From an uncultured Bacteroidales bacterium (GTDB taxonomy: Bacteria; Bacteroidota; Bacteroidia; Bacteroidales; F082): a DNA stretch of 11,803 nucleotides. The stretch lies in contig CAMKAR010000030.1 in the NCBI GenBank assembly GCA_946410535.1, positions 1 through 11,803 on the forward strand, given 5' to 3'. Below the pieces are notes generated by a model. It did not search any database and was not told the DNA's origin. It worked only from the letters and a program-made list of their open reading frames with translations. The translations under genes and the position numbers were made by a program. Below are positions 805 through 11,803 of the stretch, piece after piece. The stretch's first letter is position 1; every line of letters begins with the position of its first letter.

Positions 805-1368
805 ATGAAAAAACCGCTTCAACTGTTTTGGTCGTTCTTCAAAATCGGGGCCTTCACCCTCGGCGGCGGCTATGCCATGCTGTCGATGGTGGAGAAGGCC
901 GTCGTCGACCAGAAGAAATGGATTCCGACCGACGAGTTTTGGGACATGATTGCCGTGGTGCAGTCGCTGCCGGGTGTGTTTGCGGTCAACACGGCCTTGT
1001 ATGTCGGCCATCGCGTGGCGGGCACAAAAGGAGCCTTCGCTGCCATGCTCGGCGCCATCATCCCCAGCATCACCATCATTCTGCTTTTGGCCACGGTCTT
1101 CCGCGAGTACCGCGACCAGCCCGTGGTGGAACGCATCTTCAAGGGCATCCGTCCGTGCGTGGTGGCCCTCATCCTCGCCCCTTCCCTGCGCATGATCAAA
1201 TCCGCCAAGGTGACTTGGAAGACCGCCATCATCCCCATTGCCACGGTGTTTCTCATCTGGTGGCTGAAGGTCTCGCCGGCCTACGTCATCCTCGCCGCCA
1301 TTGCGGGAAGCTTGGTCTATGCAATAATCATCAATAAAAAAGCCAAAAAGGAGGAGGCCCAGCCATGA
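805..1368 (+). CDS. Chromate transporter family protein, first short-chain (SCHR) subunit
   Basis: This is a 187-residue inner-membrane protein of the CHR (chromate ion transporter) family. It carries the family's N-terminal motif FKIGAFTLGGGYAMLSMVEK near residues 12-31, then QSLPGVFAVNTALYVGHRVAG near 50-70, the counterpart of the LPGP...GY..aG motif, followed by several hydrophobic helices. A full-length ChrA is about 400 residues with two homologous halves; this protein is one half-size unit. The next gene encodes the second, and in characterised SCHR pairs both are needed for transport. Chromate or sulfate export is a family-based guess, and many Bacteroidota members have no proven substrate. 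The start at 805 fits the promoter, which leaves a 4-nt leader. The expected Pro after PG is Val here. The stop TGA overlaps the next ATG. Confidence 0.85.
   Translation: MKKPLQLFWSFFKIGAFTLGGGYAMLSMVEKAVVDQKKWIPTDEFWDMIAVVQSLPGVFAVNTALYVGHRVAGTKGAFAAMLGAIIPSITIILLLATVFREYRDQPVVERIFKGIRPCVVALILAPSLRMIKSAKVTWKTAIIPIATVFLIWWLKVSPAYVILAAIAGSLVYAIIINKKAKKEEAQP
1348..1354 (+). promoter_or_regulatory. Consensus Shine-Dalgarno-like site before second chr gene
   Basis: AAGGAGG lies 10 nt before the ATG at 1365, inside the 3' end of the upstream gene where it encodes Lys-Glu-Glu. Bacteroidota rarely rely on Shine-Dalgarno pairing, so it may be coincidental coding sequence or may reinforce the ATGA-coupled restart. 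Confidence 0.35.
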
Positions 1369-1904
1369 TTTACCTACAACTGCTTTGGGTCTTCGTGAAA
1401 ATCGGGGTGTTGGGTTTTGGCGGCGGCTATGCCATGCTCTCGCTCATCCAGCACGAGGTGGTGGACCACTACGGCTGGATGACTACCACCGACTTCGCCG
1501 ACATGGTGGCCATCTCGCAGATGACCCCTGGCCCCATCTCCATCAATTTGGCGACCTACGTGGGCTACACCACGGCGGGCTTTGGCGGCTCGCTGTTGGC
1601 CTCGTTTGCCCTCTGCCTGCCGTCCATCATCATGGTTTACCTTATCTTGAAACTCTTCATGAACAAGAAAAACAACTCATTGATGGACAACACCTTGAAA
1701 GGACTGAAACCCGCCATCGCCGGACTCATCTTCGCCGCCGGCCTCTCGATGATGAACACACAGAACTTCGTCGACTTCGGTCGAGGACAACACAATATCA
1801 GCGTGATTATCTGCGTTTTGGCTTTTGTGGCATCGTATTTCTTCAAGGCAAATCCGATATTGCTCATTGTGCTTTCGGGGGTGGTGGGGTTTATCGTGTA
1901 TTAG
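1365..1904 (+). CDS. Chromate transporter family protein, second short-chain (SCHR) subunit
   Basis: This 179-residue membrane protein is homologous to the gene just upstream. It has its own complete copies of the family motifs: FVKIGVLGFGGGYAMLSLIQHEVV near residues 10-33 and QMTPGPISINLATYVGYTTAGFGG near 49-72, followed by hydrophobic helices and a hydrophobic C-terminus. Because both proteins carry both motifs, this is a natural two-gene CHR system and not one chrA broken by a frameshift. The ATG overlaps the upstream TGA in an ATGA junction, so translation is probably coupled. An AAGGAGG sequence lies 10 nt upstream, unusual for this phylum. The partner protein is expected to form a heteromeric transporter with it. 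The substrate is unproven. Confidence 0.85.
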   Translation: MIYLQLLWVFVKIGVLGFGGGYAMLSLIQHEVVDHYGWMTTTDFADMVAISQMTPGPISINLATYVGYTTAGFGGSLLASFALCLPSIIMVYLILKLFMNKKNNSLMDNTLKGLKPAIAGLIFAAGLSMMNTQNFVDFGRGQHNISVIICVLAFVASYFFKANPILLIVLSGVVGFIVY

Positions 1905-1960: not shown

Positions 1961-3670
1961 ATGAAAAAGACTATTATCACTCTCATCGCCTTGCTCTGTG
2001 CAGGTTTCTCTTTTGGGCAGCACGCCCTTATGTACCTAAGCTACGCCAAGGACGTCGCGGAACAAGACACGGCCTTCATCACCGTGGTGGAGAACGCGAA
2101 ATGCTTGAAAATCAGCGACAGCGAAAAAAGCATGAAAAACCCCATCCCTGGCTATGCCGAGAGCATGACCTATGTGGACTACAAGGCCGACTCGGTTTAT
2201 AGCATCGTGGAGTTCGAAGACGGGAAGTATTTCACTGCCAGCACTTTGACGAACAACAACGTGGTTTTCAGCGAGGAAGGTACGGAAAAAGTGCTCGGCT
2301 ACAAGTGCAAAAAGTATAAGACCAGCATCAACTCCAACACCATCGAGGTGTGGATGGCCGAGAATCTCGGTTTCGAAGCCACTCCGATGCCTGGTTTGGG
2401 CAGACTCAAAGGCGTGATGGTGCGTTGCATGAGAAACGGGGCTTACGTCACGGATCTGGAATCATTGAAAGACCAGAAATACGCCATGGTCGACATGATT
2501 CCCGACTACAAAGGCGAGCGCAAGACCTCGAAGGAATTGACCAAGATGCGCAAGGACAAAGTCATCGTCCGCATCCCCATTTTCGATGATGAGACCATCA
2601 ACTTCGCTGAATACGAACCAATTAGTGGCGAAATCCCCTACGATACCACCATACATTTCAGCCACGGCACCATCATCGTGAAGCGCGTAAAACTTCCCGA
2701 ATTTCCCGAACATTACCAGCTCTTCGCCGAAATCCACCAACGCTCGAACGGCGACGCCTACGACCGCTCGGCTTCCGTCTTCGTCATCCCTACCGAAAAG
2801 GCCAAGAGCTTCAAGGACGGCCTGACGCAAGGCATCGAGGCATTACCGCAGTTTGTTGGCAAAGACGGACAGCAATACCAAGGCATCAAGGCTGAGAAAG
2901 ACTACCTGCCGCCCATCGAGTTGGTGCGGTTCTTCACCTCGTTTGGCGCAGGCCACTACAACGACCGTGTGCAAATCGACGGCTTGGAATGGGCGGAAGA
3001 GAACTATTACAAGCAGGAAGTCAGCGAGTTGCGCGACCGATTGCGCGGCGATGTGCTCATCGGGGCTTTCATCGGCAATTACGACAAAGGCGGCCACAAA
3101 CTATCGCTCGACCTCGTAGCCTACCCGGGTGACGACAAATGGGGCAAAAAACCACCGCGACAGCATTCCATTCCGCTGTTCAACACCTGTAACGTCATGG
3201 AAATGAGCGGACAAAACTATGGTCGCCTCTTTGCCACCGACACCTTGGAAGTGGAATTCGAGTTGCCCGACAGCATCACCAACGTCCGCCTGCGCTACCT
3301 CAGCACTGGACACGGCGGCTGGGATGGCGGCGACGAGTTCAACCCCAAGGAAAACGCCATCTATATCGACGGCGTGAAGCGTTTCACCCACACGCCGTGG
3401 CGCTGCGACTGCGCCACCTTCCGCGACCAAAACCCCGTTTCGGGCAACTTCTGGAACGGGCTTTCCTCGTCCGACTATTCGCGTTCGGGCTGGTGCCCCG
3501 GCACGGCCACCAATCCCATCTATTTCGACCTCAACGATTTGAAGCCAGGCAAACACACCATTCGCGTCGCCATCCCGCAAGGCAAGGACGAAGGCACGAG
3601 CTTCAGCCACTGGATGGTGTCGGGGGCGGTGCTGTATGAGGAAAACAACAAAAAGAAATCAGTAGACTAA
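1961..3670 (+). CDS. Secreted PNGase F-like peptide-N-glycosidase with extra N-terminal domain
   Basis: This is a 569-residue exported protein. Residues 1-20 are a signal peptide (MKKTIITLIALLCAGFSFGQ). Residues ~21-190 form a beta-rich domain whose segment VLGYKCKKYKT...IEVWMAENLG (111-137) resembles the GLPGLI/DUF4412 type of Bacteroidota secreted domain. Residues ~205-560 resemble PNGase F, a two-jelly-roll amidase that cleaves N-glycans from asparagine. GDAYDRSASVFV (264-275) matches the CDEWDRYANVYV of Elizabethkingia PNGase F, placing Asp268 at catalytic Asp60. GHGGWDGGDEF (450-460) places Glu459 at Glu206. NPVSGNFWNGLSSSDYSRSGWCPG (491-514) is the conserved WCPG region. The counterpart of Glu118 is not evident near 368-375. 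The likely role is periplasmic or secreted glycoprotein deglycosylation; exact specificity is unknown. The 3' end overlaps aroC on the other strand by 12 bp. Confidence 0.8.
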   Translation: MKKTIITLIALLCAGFSFGQHALMYLSYAKDVAEQDTAFITVVENAKCLKISDSEKSMKNPIPGYAESMTYVDYKADSVYSIVEFEDGKYFTASTLTNNNVVFSEEGTEKVLGYKCKKYKTSINSNTIEVWMAENLGFEATPMPGLGRLKGVMVRCMRNGAYVTDLESLKDQKYAMVDMIPDYKGERKTSKELTKMRKDKVIVRIPIFDDETINFAEYEPISGEIPYDTTIHFSHGTIIVKRVKLPEFPEHYQLFAEIHQRSNGDAYDRSASVFVIPTEKAKSFKDGLTQGIEALPQFVGKDGQQYQGIKAEKDYLPPIELVRFFTSFGAGHYNDRVQIDGLEWAEENYYKQEVSELRDRLRGDVLIGAFIGNYDKGGHKLSLDLVAYPGDDKWGKKPPRQHSIPLFNTCNVMEMSGQNYGRLFATDTLEVEFELPDSITNVRLRYLSTGHGGWDGGDEFNPKENAIYIDGVKRFTHTPWRCDCATFRDQNPVSGNFWNGLSSSDYSRSGWCPGTATNPIYFDLNDLKPGKHTIRVAIPQGKDEGTSFSHWMVSGAVLYEENNKKKSVD

Positions 3671-4615
3671 AACAGCGTCGAGCGTCACCATCGCTGCCAA
3701 AGCCTCCACCAGCACCAAGGCACGCGGCAGGGCGCACACGTCGTGCCGTCCGCCGATGGCGATTTCGCATGGCTTCCCTGCCCTGTTCACCGTTTGCTGC
3801 GGCTTTGCAATACTCGGGATCGGCTTGAAGGCCACACGGAAAACCACGTCGTTGCCATTGGTAATGCCGCCTTGGATGCCGCCGGAATGGTTGGTCAACG
3901 TGGTGATGCGACCATCTTTATTAATAAAGGTGTCGTTGGCTTCGGAGCCTTTCATCTTCGCCAAGGCAAAGCCGTCGCCCACCTCGAAGCCTTTCACCGC
4001 CGGGATGCTGAACATGGCATGGGCCAACTCAGCCGAGAACTTCCCGAACATCGGTTCGCCCAAGCCCGCCGGCACGCCCATGATACGGCATTCGGCAATA
4101 CCGCCCACCGTATCACCCTCTTTTCGAGCCTGTTCCGCATCGCCCATATAGGTAACTTCAGCGGAGATTTGGATGCTTTTTTCCTTCAAAATCTGCTTGG
4201 CGATGGCACCTGCCACCACGATGGGCAAGGTGGTACGTGCCGAAGCCCTGCCACCACCGCGCCAGTCGCGGATGCCGTATTTCTGCTCGTAGGTGAAATC
4301 GGCATGAGAAGGGCGATACACATCTTTCAACGCCTCGTAATCTTCTGGTTTACAATCTTCGTTGCGCACCATGAAGGCAATTGGTGTGCCCAAAGTCACC
4401 CCGTCGAGCAGGCCCGAAAGCCATTCTATCTTGTCGGGTTCCAAGCGTTGCGAACTTGTTGTCGATTGCGCGGTCTTGCGCCGTTGCAATTCGCTGTCGA
4501 TGAAGCCGAAGTCCAACTTGAGTTGCGAGGGGCAGCCGTCGATGACGCCACCGATGGCCGTGCCGTGCGATTCGCCGAAAGTGGTGAGCCTGAAGATTTG
4601 TCCGATGGTATTCAT
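3659..4615 (-). CDS. aroC: Chorismate synthase, compact form
   Basis: This 318-residue cytoplasmic enzyme converts EPSP to chorismate using reduced FMN, the last step of the shikimate pathway. Family signatures are clear: FGESHG at residues 13-18, [28 protein letters not shown] at 101-128, [37 protein letters not shown] at 180-216, [13 protein letters not shown] at 242-254, and [11 protein letters not shown] at 289-299. Typical bacterial AroC is about 350-365 residues. This one lacks some 25-30 residues between the YMGD (156-159) and KEGDTVGG (165-172) motifs, and it ends shortly after the last signature. The core motifs are intact, so it is probably active. The start is fixed by a TATTTTTG promoter only 4 nt upstream (leaderless mRNA). 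It is divergent from smpB and overlaps the PNGase-like gene tail-to-tail. Confidence 0.95.
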
Positions 4616-5768: not shown

Positions 5769-7232
5769 ATGAAAAAAAGACATATCTTCCTCATACTGAG
5801 CCTCTTGCTTTTTGTCGCATATGCTTGCAAGAAAAACAACACAATCAATCCCGATGCCAACCTGAAACTTGAGTTTTCGGCTGACACGGTCTTGTTCGAC
5901 ACGGTGTTCACCTCGCTCGGTTCGGCCACACACCAACTGAGGATTTACAACAGACACAGCGACGACTTGAAAATCAGCTCGATACGTCTTACGGGTGGCG
6001 ACAACTCACCTTACCGCCTCAATGTTGACGGCGAGAGCGGCATCGAGTTTTACGACAAAATCATCCCAGCCGGCGACAGCCTCTTCTCGTTCCTGCGCGT
6101 CACCATCAACCCGAACGACCTCAACACACCATTCGTAGTTGAAGACGAACTGGAATTCATCACCAATGGCAACACACAGACCATCAAGCTGTTGGCATGG
6201 GGACAAAACGCCAACTACATTGTTGCCGACAAGGTGGTCACCTTGGGCAACGTGGCCTACCCTTACCACATCGTTGCCGACAGCCTGCAAACGACGGTTT
6301 GGACCAACGAAAGGCCCTACGTCATCTACGGCTGGGCACTCATCAACTCCTACGGGACACTGAAAATAGAGGCGGGAACCAAGGTGTATTGCCACAAAGG
6401 AGGCGGCATTTTCTCGTGGAGCGACGGACAACTCATCATCGACGGGACTGCCGACGAACCCGTCATCATCCAAGGAGACCGCTTGGAGCCGTATTACAAC
6501 GACACGCCAGGGCAATGGGAGCAAATCCTGATGATGGACGGTCGCGCCGGTGCCGACCATCGCATCAGCCACGCCATCATCCGCAACGGCACCATCGGCC
6601 TCAACTGTCAGTCGTCGCTGAAGGCGACCGAATGCGCCCTGTGTATCGACAATACCGTCATCGAAAACCAAAGCGGATATGGGATCCACTCCATCCTTTA
6701 TCCCGTTGAGGCCAAGAACTTCGTGATTGCCAACTGTGGCCTCGCCAACGTGTGGGCCTTTGGCGGCGATTACCGTTTTGTGCACGGCACCATCGCCAAC
6801 TACTGGAACGCCAACGAGCACAACAAGAACGAGAATGCCGTCGTGGTGACCAACCGTGCCGTTGACGGCAACAACGAGATTTTCTACTATCCCTTCCACA
6901 TGGAGATGGACAACTGCATCATCTACGGCAAGCAGAAGGACGAGTTCAAGACGAGCTTCGGCCCCGATGCCGACTCGACCTACCTTTTCGACCACTGCCT
7001 CATCAAGTCGGAGAAATACAACGGCGCAATGCCTGGCTTCAGCCACTGCCTCTTCAATCTTGAGCCCTATTTCGCCGGCCCGATGAAGCCCGACTGCCAC
7101 ATCGACAGCATCGCCTCGCCCGTCATCGGCACTGGCAACCCGCTCTTTGGCAACGAATTGCCCTACGATTTGGATGGTGTTTCGCGCATAGGTGCACCCG
7201 ATTTGGGGGCTTTTCAGTTTGTGGGTGATTAA
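5769..7232 (+). CDS. Lipoprotein with N-terminal Ig-like domain and right-handed beta-helix
   Basis: This is a 487-residue protein. The N-terminus MKKRHIFLILSLLLFVAYAC ends in a probable lipobox with Cys20 as the lipidated residue. The following residues KKNNT lack the acidic lipoprotein export signal used by Bacteroidota for surface display, so a periplasm-facing location is possible (inference). Residues ~30-150 look like an Ig-like beta domain (FSADTVLFDTVFTSLGSATHQLRIYN). Residues ~190-430 contain short repeating beta rungs (GTLKIEAGTKVYCHKGGGIF, GQLIIDGTADEPVIIQGDRL, HAIIRNGTIGLNCQ, CIIYGK, HCLIKS) of a right-handed parallel beta-helix. The end, YDLDGVSRIGAPDLGAFQF, is the terminal motif common in such Bacteroidota helix proteins. 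Related helices bind or cleave polysaccharides, but I see no lyase catalytic motif, so function is unassigned. It overlaps the convergent M23 gene by 4 bp. Confidence 0.8.
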   Translation: MKKRHIFLILSLLLFVAYACKKNNTINPDANLKLEFSADTVLFDTVFTSLGSATHQLRIYNRHSDDLKISSIRLTGGDNSPYRLNVDGESGIEFYDKIIPAGDSLFSFLRVTINPNDLNTPFVVEDELEFITNGNTQTIKLLAWGQNANYIVADKVVTLGNVAYPYHIVADSLQTTVWTNERPYVIYGWALINSYGTLKIEAGTKVYCHKGGGIFSWSDGQLIIDGTADEPVIIQGDRLEPYYNDTPGQWEQILMMDGRAGADHRISHAIIRNGTIGLNCQSSLKATECALCIDNTVIENQSGYGIHSILYPVEAKNFVIANCGLANVWAFGGDYRFVHGTIANYWNANEHNKNENAVVVTNRAVDGNNEIFYYPFHMEMDNCIIYGKQKDEFKTSFGPDADSTYLFDHCLIKSEKYNGAMPGFSHCLFNLEPYFAGPMKPDCHIDSIASPVIGTGNPLFGNELPYDLDGVSRIGAPDLGAFQFVGD

Positions 7233-8953
7233 TACACCACCTTAGCCGTAAACGTCTTCTTGTTCCCCACGCCATCGGTCACCACGACCTTGACGTTGTT
7301 GGTGCCTTTCTTGATTTTCTCGTCGAACTCATAGTAAAGCAAGGCATTCTTGGCATCGTATTGGCCCAACACCCACACGTCGTCAAGATAAATGTCGTAG
7401 GTCTCAATGCCTGTCATGTCGTCGGAAATCTTGAATCGCAACGACTTGAGCGAGCTCACCGCCTGCCCGTTCTTGAAATTGGTAGCCTTCACCGAGGGTG
7501 CCACCGAGTCGATTTTCAAGGTGTACTCACCCAAAGTGAATGTGGTGGTCTCGATGCAGCCGTCCTTCATCTTGCCGCCAAGCGAGCTGACCTTGCCGTT
7601 CTTGTCGATATTGGCGATGTAAAGCCTTTTGTCGGCAGCCCACTCCTCGTTGGGACGGATGCGGACAGTGACCTTCTTGAAAACAGCCATCTCCTCATCG
7701 CCGAAACGATAAATACGTGAGCAACAGCCTTTTTCGTCGCGCTGACCCGTGCGCACCCATTCGTCGCGGAAGAAAGTGCCCTTCTCCATCGAGACGTTGA
7801 AATCCTCGATGGTGATGTTGCTGTTCATCGATCCATCGGCAGTGACGAGATACTCGCTGCGGCGGTGTGTGGGGCGTTCCACCTCAACGGGTTCGATGCC
7901 CACGAGCTTGAACTTGGCCGTCGAAACGTTGCCAGCGAAATCGCTGATTTTGAAGCGCACTTCAATCGTGTCGCCTTCCTCGACGTGGGCAATGCCATTG
8001 CGTTTCTTGATCATCCGCAGCTTGTTGTTGGGGTCGGTTTCGGTGCGCACATAGCTCGACTTCTTCTGCTTGTAGTGGCGGTAGTCCAACAGGCTGTTGA
8101 CATAGCGCGGCTCGCTGTAAGAGAAGCTGTCAGCCTCCACCTGGAAAGCCAGCTCGTCGTCGAGGTAAAGCTCATAGAGATAAGGGCCGTTCTTGTTGGT
8201 CGAAGTGCCCACTTGGTCGTAGGTGCAAACACCGAACGAGATGTCGCCATTGGCATAGACTATTGGTCTGTCTTTCAAGACAAAACGACCATTTCCATTA
8301 TCCGATATAGAGAAGAACATCGGTTTGGAGGCCCGTTCGAGCGTCGACGTCTCGCCAATGGGATAGGCCGACACACCCTGAATGAGGGGCTTTACGTTGT
8401 CCTCGATCTTATAGCCGAAAAACATCGGGTTGACAGGCTTCTCGCTGTCGGTATGGCGAATTTCGAAGTGCAGGTGCGGCCCGCCCGAGCCGCCCGAGTT
8501 GCCCGAATAGCCAATCAGGTCGCCCTTCTTGACGGGAAACTTGTCTTTGTCGGGATAGATTTGCGAGGTGAATTTCTTGTGCTTGTATTGGTATTGCTTC
8601 ACGTATTTGGCTATCTCGCCCGAGAAACGCTGCATGTGCGCGTAAACCGTCGTAAAACCATCGTAATGCGTGATATACAACACGTTACCATATCCGTAAG
8701 GCGAAACCCCGATGCGGCTGACGTAGCCATCGGCCACGGCATACACCTTCTTGCCCTCCACGCCTTGCGTCTTGATGTCGAGGCCTGCATGGACATGGTT
8801 GGGACGGATTTCGCCGAACGTCGCCGAGAGCTGAATCGGGATGTCCAACGGGCTGCGATACTGTGGGAAACGCTCCTGAGCCATCAGGCCCAAGGCCAAA
8901 AAACAAAGCATTACGGTGAATGACAAACGCATTTTCATGTTGACAGACTTCAT
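7229..8953 (-). CDS. Secreted M23-family metallopeptidase (LytM domain)
   Basis: This 574-residue protein is predicted to cut peptidoglycan cross-links in the periplasm. Residues 1-25 are a signal peptide (…MRLSFTVMLCFLALGLMA, then Gln26). The LytM domain spans about residues 45-178. Its zinc ligands are intact: His55 and Asp59 in HAGLD, and His162 in HLHFE, with His160 of the HxH motif also present. YAHM (104-107) is the usual substrate-groove motif. A lysine- and tyrosine-rich insertion (~112-138) sits in the domain. Residues ~180-574 form a long beta-rich region with EGDTIEVRFKISDFAGN and Ig-like SLKSLRFKISDDMTGIETYDIYLDD segments, possibly for anchoring or binding. The start is limited by the TATCTTTG promoter at 8971-8978. 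ATG 8953, 8938 or 8932 are all possible and all precede the signal peptide. An open frame extends upstream but runs through the promoter and the divergent gene. Confidence 0.9.
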   Translation of the reverse strand: MKSVNMKMRLSFTVMLCFLALGLMAQERFPQYRSPLDIPIQLSATFGEIRPNHVHAGLDIKTQGVEGKKVYAVADGYVSRIGVSPYGYGNVLYITHYDGFTTVYAHMQRFSGEIAKYVKQYQYKHKKFTSQIYPDKDKFPVKKGDLIGYSGNSGGSGGPHLHFEIRHTDSEKPVNPMFFGYKIEDNVKPLIQGVSAYPIGETSTLERASKPMFFSISDNGNGRFVLKDRPIVYANGDISFGVCTYDQVGTSTNKNGPYLYELYLDDELAFQVEADSFSYSEPRYVNSLLDYRHYKQKKSSYVRTETDPNNKLRMIKKRNGIAHVEEGDTIEVRFKISDFAGNVSTAKFKLVGIEPVEVERPTHRRSEYLVTADGSMNSNITIEDFNVSMEKGTFFRDEWVRTGQRDEKGCCSRIYRFGDEEMAVFKKVTVRIRPNEEWAADKRLYIANIDKNGKVSSLGGKMKDGCIETTTFTLGEYTLKIDSVAPSVKATNFKNGQAVSSLKSLRFKISDDMTGIETYDIYLDDVWVLGQYDAKNALLYYEFDEKIKKGTNNVKVVVTDGVGNKKTFTAKVVY

Positions 8954-9019: not shown

Positions 9020-11008
9020 ATGCGCCGCCAGACCCGAAAAGAGAGATTCAACGAATGGCTTTCGACCCCCTACATGCTGTTGCTCTACAGGATGCTGGCC
9101 ACCCTGCTTGCACTCAGCCTCAGCCGATGGATGCTCTATTTGTTCAACATACAATTTTTCCACCAGCTCAACATCAGACAGGCTTTGTCGCTCTATTTCA
9201 ACGGGATGCGTTTCGACCTTCCCATCGTATTCGGCATCAACCTCCTGACCATTCTCTTCTATTGTTTCCCGTCGCGACTGATTTACAATAAAGGATTGCA
9301 GCGTTTCGTCGACATCGTTTACGTCACGCTCAATGCCCTTGCCATCCTTTCCAACTTCTTGGATATCATCTGTTTCCATTTCTTCGGAAAGCACCTCACC
9401 ATCGACTTCATCAAGCTGCTCAGCCGTTCCGACGAGGTTTCGTTCGTCACCATGCGACAAGTGCTGTTCGACTACTGGTATTTGCTCGTCATTTTAATCC
9501 TTTTCGTTTTGATTATCAGGGTTGTGGCTGAGCAAACCAGAATCAAGCCACCCACCAAGGAAGAAGCACCCCGATGGCGTTTGCGCCAAGCCATCAGCCT
9601 GGTGGTCATGACGTTGCTGACCCTCGTTGCCGGACGTGGCGGACTGCAAGCCGAGCCTATCACGGTGGAGACCGCCATGCAATACACCGACCCACAAAAC
9701 GCACCCATCCTGCTCAACACGCCCTTTTGCCTCGTCACCACCCACGACACTGACCTTGAGGAGCTGAACGGACACTACAACAGCGACTTCACGCCCATCC
9801 ACAACACATTGGTGGCCAACCGCTTCATCGAAAACGACACCATCCAAGCCGACACCATCCCCACCAATGTGGTCGTCGTCATCCTGAAAAACGTCGGGCA
9901 GGAGATGATTGGCTACTACAGCCACGACCGACGCTACAAAATCACGCCCTTCCTCGACTCGTTGCTCGACAACAGCCTCACTTTCAACGGCATGTCGAAC
10001 AGTCGGCGCGGCCTCGAAGCGTTACCGTCCATCTTAGCCAGCCTCCCCGCGCTGATGGAGAACGACTTCACGAGGTCGGCCTATGCAACCAACGACTTCG
10101 ACGCCTATAGCCAACACCTGCAAAGGCGAGGCTACAACACCATCTTCATGCACGGTGGCAACAACGGTGTCTTGGGTTTCGACGACTTTGCACGACGCGC
10201 CGGCTTCAGCAAGTATTTCGGGCGCATCGAATACGGCGACGACAGCGACTTCGACGGACAATGGGGCATCTACGACGGGCCTTTCCTCCAATATGCCGTC
10301 AAGACCCTGAGTCGCGTGCACGAGCCTTTCGCGACGGCCATCTACACCCTTTCGTCGCGCTATCCCTATCGCGTGCCCAAAGACTTCGAGCTGCCCGACG
10401 AGAGCTACTTCTGGACCGGGTTCGAGAAGACGGTCTACTACGTCGACTGCGCCCTGCGCGACTTCTTCGAGGCTGCATCGCGGACAAAATGGTTCGACCA
10501 CACCCTCTTCGTCATCACCACCGACTATTCCAACAGCGAGCATTTCCAACCCGAATACAGCAACGTCTGGGGCATGTACGCCATTCCCGTCGCTTTCTAT
10601 TACCCACAGAAAATCAGTCCATTACGATGCAAAGAGATAGCCCAACAAATCGACCTTGGGCCATCGATACTTGCAGCGGTGGGAGCCAACGACACTTTGT
10701 TTTCGTTCGGGCGCAACCTGTTCGACCCCCTCAGCGAGCCGTCGTTTGTGAGCTACTACAACCTCACCTACCAATATTGCGACGGCACCTATCTCGTGCA
10801 ATCCGACGGAGAACAGCCCTTCGGCATCTTCAAGCCCATCAGCGACTCGCTGCTGAACGACAACCTCATCGACCGGCTGCAATGCCCCGACGTGTACGAC
10901 AAGCTGTACCGCTTCATCCAAGTCTACAACAACGGAATGATTCACAATAAACTAACCATAAATCATGATACGGAAATACATAGAAATCCTGACCAACCTC
11001 AACCTTAA
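9020..11008 (+). CDS. LTA synthase/phosphoglycerol transferase-like membrane protein, probable pseudoenzyme
   Basis: This 662-residue inner-membrane protein has five hydrophobic segments (about residues 18-40, 67-84, 97-120, 150-169, 189-206). The linker motif GRGGLQ...LNTPF follows, then a periplasmic sulfatase-fold domain (about 283-600). The fold and flanking motifs match Bacteroidota LtaS/OpgB-type proteins: TPFLDSLLDNSLTF, RGLEALPSILASLPAL, FMHGGNNGVLGFDDFARRAGF, DFDGQWGIYDGPFLQY and FDHTLFVITTDYSN. The active site is ruined, however. The metal-ligand Glu is Lys290 (ILKNV for ILESF), the Ser/Thr nucleophile position is Gly331 (RRGLEAL for RRSIEAL), SSHHPF is SSRYPY (447-448), and the DH pair is Asp502-Tyr503. 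A structural, binding or regulatory role is likelier than phosphoglycerol transfer. The start follows the promoter at 8992-8999; an upstream TTG at 8966 is rejected. Its last 44 bp overlap the mscS-family gene. Confidence 0.85.
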   Translation: MRRQTRKERFNEWLSTPYMLLLYRMLATLLALSLSRWMLYLFNIQFFHQLNIRQALSLYFNGMRFDLPIVFGINLLTILFYCFPSRLIYNKGLQRFVDIVYVTLNALAILSNFLDIICFHFFGKHLTIDFIKLLSRSDEVSFVTMRQVLFDYWYLLVILILFVLIIRVVAEQTRIKPPTKEEAPRWRLRQAISLVVMTLLTLVAGRGGLQAEPITVETAMQYTDPQNAPILLNTPFCLVTTHDTDLEELNGHYNSDFTPIHNTLVANRFIENDTIQADTIPTNVVVVILKNVGQEMIGYYSHDRRYKITPFLDSLLDNSLTFNGMSNSRRGLEALPSILASLPALMENDFTRSAYATNDFDAYSQHLQRRGYNTIFMHGGNNGVLGFDDFARRAGFSKYFGRIEYGDDSDFDGQWGIYDGPFLQYAVKTLSRVHEPFATAIYTLSSRYPYRVPKDFELPDESYFWTGFEKTVYYVDCALRDFFEAASRTKWFDHTLFVITTDYSNSEHFQPEYSNVWGMYAIPVAFYYPQKISPLRCKEIAQQIDLGPSILAAVGANDTLFSFGRNLFDPLSEPSFVSYYNLTYQYCDGTYLVQSDGEQPFGIFKPISDSLLNDNLIDRLQCPDVYDKLYRFIQVYNNGMIHNKLTINHDTEIHRNPDQPQP

Positions 11009-11803
11009 GATGGGTCTCAACGAGAGCCTTTCGATAGGTCTCGCCGAAACAGTTTCGACCCTGAGCCTACTCTTGCTCAGCATCGGCATCTTCTTCTTGG
11101 TCAAGTTCATACTGAAGAAAACCGTCTACAAAATCATCCAACGGTCGACAACCCAATACGACGACCTGCTCATCAAGAACAAGGTCATTGGGCGCATCTG
11201 CTTGCTCATCCCCGCGCTTCTCATCGGGGCTTTGCTTCCCGACGTCCTCCCCGACTTTCCCGACACCGCCACCTCGTTGGGAAAACTGGTCAAAATCTTC
11301 GAAATCGTCATCTACACCATGATTCTCAGCTCGATAATGACCACCTTGGAGGACATCTACAACACCCAAGAGATGTCGAAACTCAAGCCACTGACGGGTT
11401 TGGTGCAAGTCATCAAGATTGTGTTGTATGTCCTTGCCGTGCTGATTATCATCGCCTACCTTATGAACACCAAGCTCAGCACCATTTTCATCAGCTTGGG
11501 CACCATGTCGGCAGTATTGATGCTGGTCTTTCAGGACACCATCAAAGGCTTCGTGGGCAGCATACAGCTCTCGGCCAACGACATGCTCCGCATCGGTGAC
11601 TGGATTGCGGTGGGTCCCGCCGACGGCAACGTGCTGGAAATCAACCTCACAACAGTAAAGGTGCAGAATTGGGACAACACCATCACCACCATCCCAACCT
11701 ACAGTTTGGTGTCGAGTCCGTTCACCAACTGGCGCGGAATGTCGGAATCGGGCGGACGACGCATCGCCCGCACCATCAACATCGACGTGAACACCATACG
11801 CTA
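10965..11803 (+). CDS. MscS-family mechanosensitive channel, YbdG-like, partial at C-terminus
   Basis: The frame encodes 279 residues and runs off the right edge. It is an inner-membrane channel subunit that opens under membrane tension to release solutes. Hydrophobic helices lie near residues 31-50, 75-92, 110-126 and 146-166. The pore-lining helix is SLGTMSAVLMLVFQDTIKGFVGSIQL (177-202). The start of the beta domain, LSANDMLRIGDWIAVG, and NLTTVKVQNWDNTITTIPTYSLVSSPFTNWRGMSESGGRRI (227-266) are close to the YbdG/miniconductance subgroup. The ATG at 10965 overlaps the upstream gene by 44 bp in another frame and follows an A/T-rich stretch typical of Bacteroidota starts. A second ATG at 11010, one base after the upstream stop, would shorten the protein by 15 residues and cannot be excluded. 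It is probably co-transcribed with the LtaS-like gene, since no separate promoter is visible. Confidence 0.9.
   Translation, partial: MIRKYIEILTNLNLKMGLNESLSIGLAETVSTLSLLLLSIGIFFLVKFILKKTVYKIIQRSTTQYDDLLIKNKVIGRICLLIPALLIGALLPDVLPDFPDTATSLGKLVKIFEIVIYTMILSSIMTTLEDIYNTQEMSKLKPLTGLVQVIKIVLYVLAVLIIIAYLMNTKLSTIFISLGTMSAVLMLVFQDTIKGFVGSIQLSANDMLRIGDWIAVGPADGNVLEINLTTVKVQNWDNTITTIPTYSLVSSPFTNWRGMSESGGRRIARTINIDVNTIR

Follow-up and report, generated by a model that had tools for sequence, protein, structure and literature searches.

We found that an LtaS-like membrane protein of an uncultured Bacteroidales bacterium lacks the metal site and the nucleophile of LtaS-type enzymes and that its altered pocket and its membrane domain are conserved. 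The gene lies at positions 9020 to 11008 on the forward strand of the window, by which we mean the whole stretch of 11,803 nucleotides analyzed here. It is nearly certain that LtaS-type catalysis has been lost. On balance, it is probable that this LtaS/MdoB-type orthologue has abandoned metal-dependent phosphotransfer and has been retained for a PbgA-like, noncatalytic role in the envelope, in which it binds a phosphate-bearing ligand.

The reading frame of this LtaS-family pseudoenzyme gene spans 662 codons from the ATG at 9020 to the stop at 11008, both of which we located, and is open throughout, as originally predicted. Pfam Sulfatase (PF00884) matched the protein with an E value of 3.6e-23 and the NCBIfam LtaS model with an E value of 3.1e-19, at 69 bits against a cut-off of 970 bits. 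Long helices at residues 17-42, 52-73, 91-122, 153-172, and 186-205 of the AlphaFold2 model would fit a membrane anchor. The five-helix membrane domain, which also contains a weak DUF3413 match, comprises residues 1-205 (9020 to 9634), and it is followed in the model by a linker of residues 206-282 (9635 to 9865) and by a sulfatase/LtaS-fold core of residues 283-570 (9866 to 10729), all on the forward strand. Both elements of the LtaS/MdoB layout, the five-helix anchor and the sulfatase-fold domain, are present in the window protein, in line with the anchor, linker, and fold proposed for it earlier. In a fold search with the model, residues 256-644 were well covered; the membrane domain could be superposed solely via full-length PbgA, with an rmsd of 15-16 Å across both domains.

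Active-site residues were compared in a first alignment of the window protein with 120 proteins and 38 loci and in a wider one of 351 nonidentical rows, divided into a clade of 159 rows at ≥57% identity (window protein included) and 192 others. The metal ligands Glu, Thr/Ser, Asp, and His correspond in the window protein to Lys290 (9887 to 9889), Gly331 (10010 to 10012), Asp502, and Tyr503 (10523 to 10528 for the pair, with Tyr503 at 10526 to 10528), so that one of the four is kept. Of the phosphate-site His pair, His378 (10151 to 10153) is retained and the second is replaced by Arg447, which together with Tyr448 turns SSHHPY into SSRYPY. The original prediction had placed Lys290, Gly331, and Tyr503 correctly; its SSRYPY motif is present but starts at 10352 (10352 to 10369), 10358 being the Arg447 codon.

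Profile alignment to solved LtaS chains matched the family Glu column (Lys290) and the SSHHPY and DH columns to LtaS Glu, NHYP/NHFP, and DH, respectively, and together with the family alignments it upheld the claim that only Asp502 remains of the metal set. At the nucleophile, S. aureus LtaS is misaligned by about 3 residues in the profile alignment. We thus based the equation of T300 with residue 331 not on that alignment but on 3lxq (TRS), against which the column is well placed, on the start of model helix 331-340, where Gly331 stands, and on the conserved RRSIEA block. Since orthologues in the same gene slot and some paralogues from the same genomes hold the ligands at exactly these columns, the ligands have been lost and have not moved elsewhere in the subfamily.

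The alteration is shared by the whole clade. Lys290 was found in 157 of the 159 clade rows and in none of the 192 others, Arg447 in 158 (with a gap in the remaining one), and both Asp502 and His378 in all 159; position 503 is occupied by Tyr (131), Cys (18), Phe (9), or Asn (1). Lys290, Arg447, Asp502, and a non-His residue at 503 occur together in 156 of the 159 clade rows, the window included, whereas 166 of the 192 nonclade rows have the full set of Glu, Ser/Thr, His447, Asp, and His. No clade row combines Glu290 with His503, and His is absent at 447 and 503 in every clade row readable at these positions. Glu290 is present in two clade rows (L029 and L030); because both are nested inside the clade in the tree, it looks like a reversion. 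A decaying gene or a sequencing artefact, in favor of which nothing was found, is hardly credible given so widely shared a pattern and the low dN/dS values described below.

The nucleophile followed a different course. Position 331 is Ser in 127 clade rows, Gly in 19, Thr in 6, Asn in 3, Cys in 2, and Ala and Asp in 1 each. Of the four changed positions originally predicted, all are real and three are clade-wide, but the nucleophile has been lost only in the branch of the window and in some others; judging by the alignment, its loss is a later, sporadic step. The 133 rows with Ser/Thr331 could point to residual chemistry, which speaks against our best reading. They also favor the idea of a metal-free enzyme, in which Lys290 and Arg447 replace the metal and Ser331 still performs phosphotransfer or hydrolysis, with Gly331 of the window protein as a later loss; the invariant His378 and Asp502 agree with this. 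Nevertheless, we consider such an enzyme improbable, as position 331 has been lost repeatedly within the clade (to Gly, Asn, Cys, Ala, and Asp) with dN/dS still low and as His447 and His503 are absent. Ser, Gly, Thr, Asn, and Asp are common helix-capping residues. Since these five account for 156 of the 159 clade rows at position 331, the Ser331 of most members may be only a helix cap.

Canonical relatives at 39 to 54% identity share the gene slot [SmpB - g5769 -] M23(-) - LtaS(+) - MscS(+) with the window, where the divergent M23 peptidase-family gene, recognized by a domain match and by locus comparison, occupies 7229 to 8932 on the reverse strand. Within the stretches fetched for 40 loci (L151 to L190, three of them clade members), the MscS gene was present in 34 and the M23 gene in 33, and the slot is shared in most loci of Bacteroidales orthologues of the "LTA synthase family"/MdoB-like type (e.g., L151 and L171). 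These canonical orthologues have E, S, HH, and DH in the active site, a downstream diacylglycerol (DAG) kinase gene, and Arg125, all of which the window lacks; the predicted model of one of them (P0136) has the same elements as that of the window protein. In a quick tree of 126 rows, from which the trait columns were left out, the clade forms one branch (SH-aLRT 100) among the canonical orthologues of the same slot. Because of this position, the gene was most likely converted in place and not gained as a spare copy.

The median dN/dS over 34 clade pairs was 0.075 (Nei-Gojobori, dS 0.02 to 1.2), and the value for the window protein versus L001 was 0.057. The only two sister pairs close enough for the estimate gave 0.064 (both Gln447) and 0.102. 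The clade gene is thus under ordinary purifying selection and hence functional. The original claim of a pseudoenzyme under selection is supported by these values, the residue pattern, and the tree.

Catalytic residues have also been lost separately in further lineages of this orthologue. Noncanonical sites were found in 26 nonclade rows at 43 to 51% identity, or 21 once near-copies were removed, and the changes include replacement of the nucleophile by Pro or Ala and of the metal Asp by Asn, as well as deletions of the HGG and WGI loops. On the tree, the 21 rows require 9 label changes, 8 of them forced by well-supported branches. Over the whole tree, with the clade included and gaps counted as lost, the fewest changes per position were 10 for S331, 9 for H447, 8 for D502, 7 for H378, and 4 each for E290 and H503. 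Several noncanonical rows differ solely by Gln447 and may still be active. Altered or missing active-site loops, nucleophile, or metal Asp were observed in P0203, P0204, P0210, P0219, P0221, P0224, and L165, with frames of 590 to 659 residues. Since these other lineages have also lost catalytic residues, the enzyme would, on the tentative lipid-sensor scheme described below, probably already have had a second, noncatalytic function.

The protein might be kept only as a scaffold, needed either for its membrane domain or to build up an envelope complex as a structural subunit, with the soluble domain conserved for folding and the pocket empty. Such a role would agree with the separate losses of pocket residues and even whole loops, with a near-normal membrane domain in the 21 noncanonical rows (mean pairwise column identity of 0.531, versus 0.552 in canonical sisters), and with a merely structural Ser331. 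In those rows, however, the pocket is less conserved than the core (0.46 versus 0.552), whereas in the clade the pocket exceeds the remainder of the core in conservation (0.864 versus 0.783) and the residues newly acquired there are close to fixation, which makes a pure scaffold rather unlikely here. In canonical sisters, the pocket reaches 0.905 and the six ligand columns reach 1.0, compared with 0.849 for these columns in the clade, which is overall less diverse (0.708 versus 0.645). The pocket has therefore been loosened in the 21-row lineages and rebuilt in the clade, under slightly less constraint than an active site.

The neighboring gene content differs as well. A DAG kinase gene lies directly 3' of the LtaS-like gene, often overlapping it, in all 37 nonclade loci with enough downstream sequence, including 4 with a noncanonical site (L155, L157, L165, and L166). 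Of 35 clade loci, 14 have this gene downstream, and it is absent in the window; for the copy tested, its identity was confirmed by PF00781 and YegS_C. In a PF00781 census of 65 genomes, the operon DAG kinase was missing in 23 of 37 clade genomes, of which 22 have PF00781 matches solely on other contigs (G005 has one more, below the cut-off) and one, G320, has none. The operon copy in these 23 genomes is gone and has not moved. The second DAGK-family protein could also process DAG. LtaS-type transfer from phosphatidylglycerol is described as releasing DAG (PMC4192460), and the Gram-positive DAG kinase gene dgkB is described as dispensable when lipoteichoic acid synthesis is blocked (PMC10865820). 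Loss of a DAG-releasing reaction would thus lead one to expect loss of the kinase, as found in most clade members, and this absence is a further argument against a metal-free enzyme.

A catalytic LtaS-type paralogue was present in 11 of the 14 kinase-keeping and in none of the 23 kinase-losing clade genomes (Fisher test, 4e-7, with kinship ignored). When kinship was considered, three independent pairs were left, which went the same way in two or three cases and never the opposite way (sign test, P of at least 0.25); the fewest changes across clade genomes were 4 for the kinase and 6 for the paralogue. In G301, G303, and G310, whose completeness is unstated, the kinase is kept and the paralogue was not found.

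The check for an active paralogue that had been suggested for this protein gave a divided answer. A canonical LtaS-type paralogue exists in 11 of the 37 clade genomes (L040 to L043 were aligned, and L191 to L197 were judged by eye), whereas in 20, including the genome nearest to the window (G001), the LtaS-like gene is the sole PF00884 match, genome completeness being unstated. Regulation of an active paralogue was rejected as a general role on account of these 20 genomes. The other 6 encode only a secreted protein of about 300 to 490 residues, which we did not count as LtaS-like and which looks like a nucleotide pyrophosphatase/phosphodiesterase. Secreted phosphodiesterase-like proteins, mostly of about 300 residues, were seen in 10 clade genomes (L198 to L208), and in G262, G308, and G324 a phosphodiesterase-like gene lies about 5 to 7 kb downstream of the LtaS-like gene. 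G008 also encodes a sulfatase-type protein (L209).

In the window, the LtaS-like gene is overlapped at its end by 44 bases by a mechanosensitive channel (MscS) gene (10965 to 11803, forward strand, cut by the window end; PF00924, E value of 7.1e-19). This overlap and the presence of MscS in most relatives' loci would suit a dedicated partner of the channel, and regulation of the coencoded channel had been proposed as a specific role. That proposal is weakened, since the two genes adjoin in the window because the intervening DAG kinase gene and, in many relatives, a SUI1-family translation factor gene (e.g., L005:8832-9173) are absent. Direct contact is therefore secondary, and no MscS match was found in the downstream sequence examined for L025 and L027 (only 1,770 bases for L027). 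We consider a dedicated MscS partner very unlikely. SUI1 was found in 2 of the 13 genomes scanned and was not found in the other 11, G001 among them; as it is also unseen in several canonical loci, it does not track catalysis. The idea that its loss signals a wider loss of the operon was rejected.

Elsewhere in the window, we observed a split chromate-transporter pair (805 to 1904, forward strand; two half-size genes with a 4-base overlap) and a peptide-N-glycosidase F homologue (1961 to 3670, forward strand) that carries the two PNGase F domains together with an N-terminal domain of the PNGase F-II type. Between them lies a 15-base tandem repeat of 3.3 copies (1911 to 1958). The chorismate synthase gene (3659 to 4615, reverse strand) lacks an insert, 6 to 21 residues long, that is present in the four relatives compared (e.g., DAGLRDARRETSPESRSLESRV in L006). 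The alpha/beta hydrolase gene that follows MscS has similar short Arg/Ser-rich inserts, and the inserts resemble a short repeat element copied in frame. The idea of a mobile element was rejected, as the window had no phage match and its plasmid matches were distant (22 to 24% identity among the matches listed, 5 of 49). Promoter and terminator scans of the window gave nothing clearly above shuffled controls.

Returning to the noncatalytic, ligand-binding role that we favor, we infer both the ligand and the output of the clade protein. Lys290 would replace the Mn2+ ion, standing where one of its ligands stood and perhaps pairing with Asp502. Together with Arg447 and His378, it would form a cationic pocket, in which a phosphate-bearing head group could be held and not cleaved. 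Binding of a lipid or glycan head group, one of the roles originally put forward, is our preferred, as yet unproved reading of the sequences. Through the linker, the membrane domain might sense whether the pocket is occupied and, in the manner of PbgA/YejM, would act on a partner involved in the homeostasis of envelope lipids or lipopolysaccharide.

A more specific version of this scheme, which we put forward tentatively as possible, is that a PbgA-like lipid sensor arose a second time, independently. In a Bacteroidales lineage, a functional phosphoglycerol transferase beside a kinase recycling its DAG by-product would have been turned in place into a noncatalytic receptor, with Lys290/Arg447 in its pocket and a dyad of Asp115 and His125 in its membrane domain, and the kinase would have been dropped in most members. 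Asp115 (9362 to 9364, forward strand) is Asp in all 351 rows, and position 125 (9392 to 9394, forward strand) is His in 158 of the 159 clade rows and Arg in 191 of the 192 others; P0209, the earliest-branching clade row, has Arg125. A profile of the clade aligned Asp115 and His125 ungapped with D104 and H114 of E. coli YejM (Prob 69.7, E value of 4.2e-5), and no other D-X9-H occurs in residues 1-210 of the window protein or in residues 1-200 of YejM. The canonical-family profile, with Arg at position 125, was about as similar to YejM (Prob 65.3). In all, 24 columns have switched from the canonical sisters to the clade, column 125 among them, and the match of this column to YejM was noticed post hoc. 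In PbgA, D104 and H114 are described as a conserved dyad, whose mutation is reported to have only a small effect (PMC7018646).

The DUF3413 match of the window protein (residues 71-200; E value of 0.0044) reached 16.7 bits, compared with a Pfam cut-off of 27.1. We gave it little weight because cytochrome bd subunit II, an unrelated family, scored better (E value of 0.00076, likewise subthreshold), and it may be membrane-helix noise. At E values of up to 1, DUF3413 gave subthreshold matches to 5 of 7 clade proteins and no match to either of 2 canonical ones. No DUF3413 protein above the cut-off was found in 13 genomes; Bacteroides uniformis is named among DUF3413 members (PMC7018646). With regard to the LapB/FtsH-mediated control of LpxC that is characteristic of PbgA/YejM, LpxC was found in 12 of the 13 genomes. 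A zinc-ribbon search with PF18073, which matches Bacillus too, gave matches in all 13, in frames of 453 to 645 residues that we take to be probably RadA and not LapB, so that LapB was not identified in this way.

Regulatory membrane proteins of the LtaS fold whose active sites are altered have a precedent in PbgA/YejM, the activity of which is disputed: YejM has been reported as a Mg phosphatase (PMC7576196) and elsewhere as being without proper catalytic residues (PMC7773988). New here are the separate origin in Bacteroidales, the intact orthologue beside the clade in the tree, the repeated losses, and the departure of the kinase; among the titles and abstract openings of the literature searched, no paper described a Bacteroidota clade of LtaS-family proteins that is catalytically dead. 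From the intact orthologue through the altered pocket and sporadic nucleophile loss to kinase loss, these proteins form an evolutionary series of an envelope phosphotransferase becoming a nonenzyme, with the intact same-slot orthologue as a ready control. We predict that names like "phosphoglycerol transferase MdoB-like," which some clade members have been given, are functionally wrong for the clade.

Compared with the solved enzymes, the window protein differs at the very residues that handle metal and phosphate. Lipoteichoic acid is not known from Bacteroidales. The metal ligands E, T, and H of LtaS and LtaP (4uoo, 4uor, 4uop, 2w5q, and 2w8d) are K, G, and Y in the window protein, whereas VP1736 of Vibrio parahaemolyticus (3lxq) retains Glu, Ser, His, and Asp-His at the columns changed there. 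The phosphate-site His residues of Listeria LtaS are given as His-353 and His-422 (PMC4192460), and the latter corresponds to Arg447. With PbgA/YejM/LapC (6xlp, 6v8q, and 6vat), the window protein shares the D-X9-H dyad on helix 3 and the next loop and a periplasmic LtaS-like domain with an altered active site. YejM, however, retains Thr302 and has Gly450-Arg451 in place of Asp502-Tyr503; as it has lost different ligands, the two losses can be argued to be independent, and the Bacteroidales clade offers an independent parallel for the dispute over PbgA/YejM as an enzyme.
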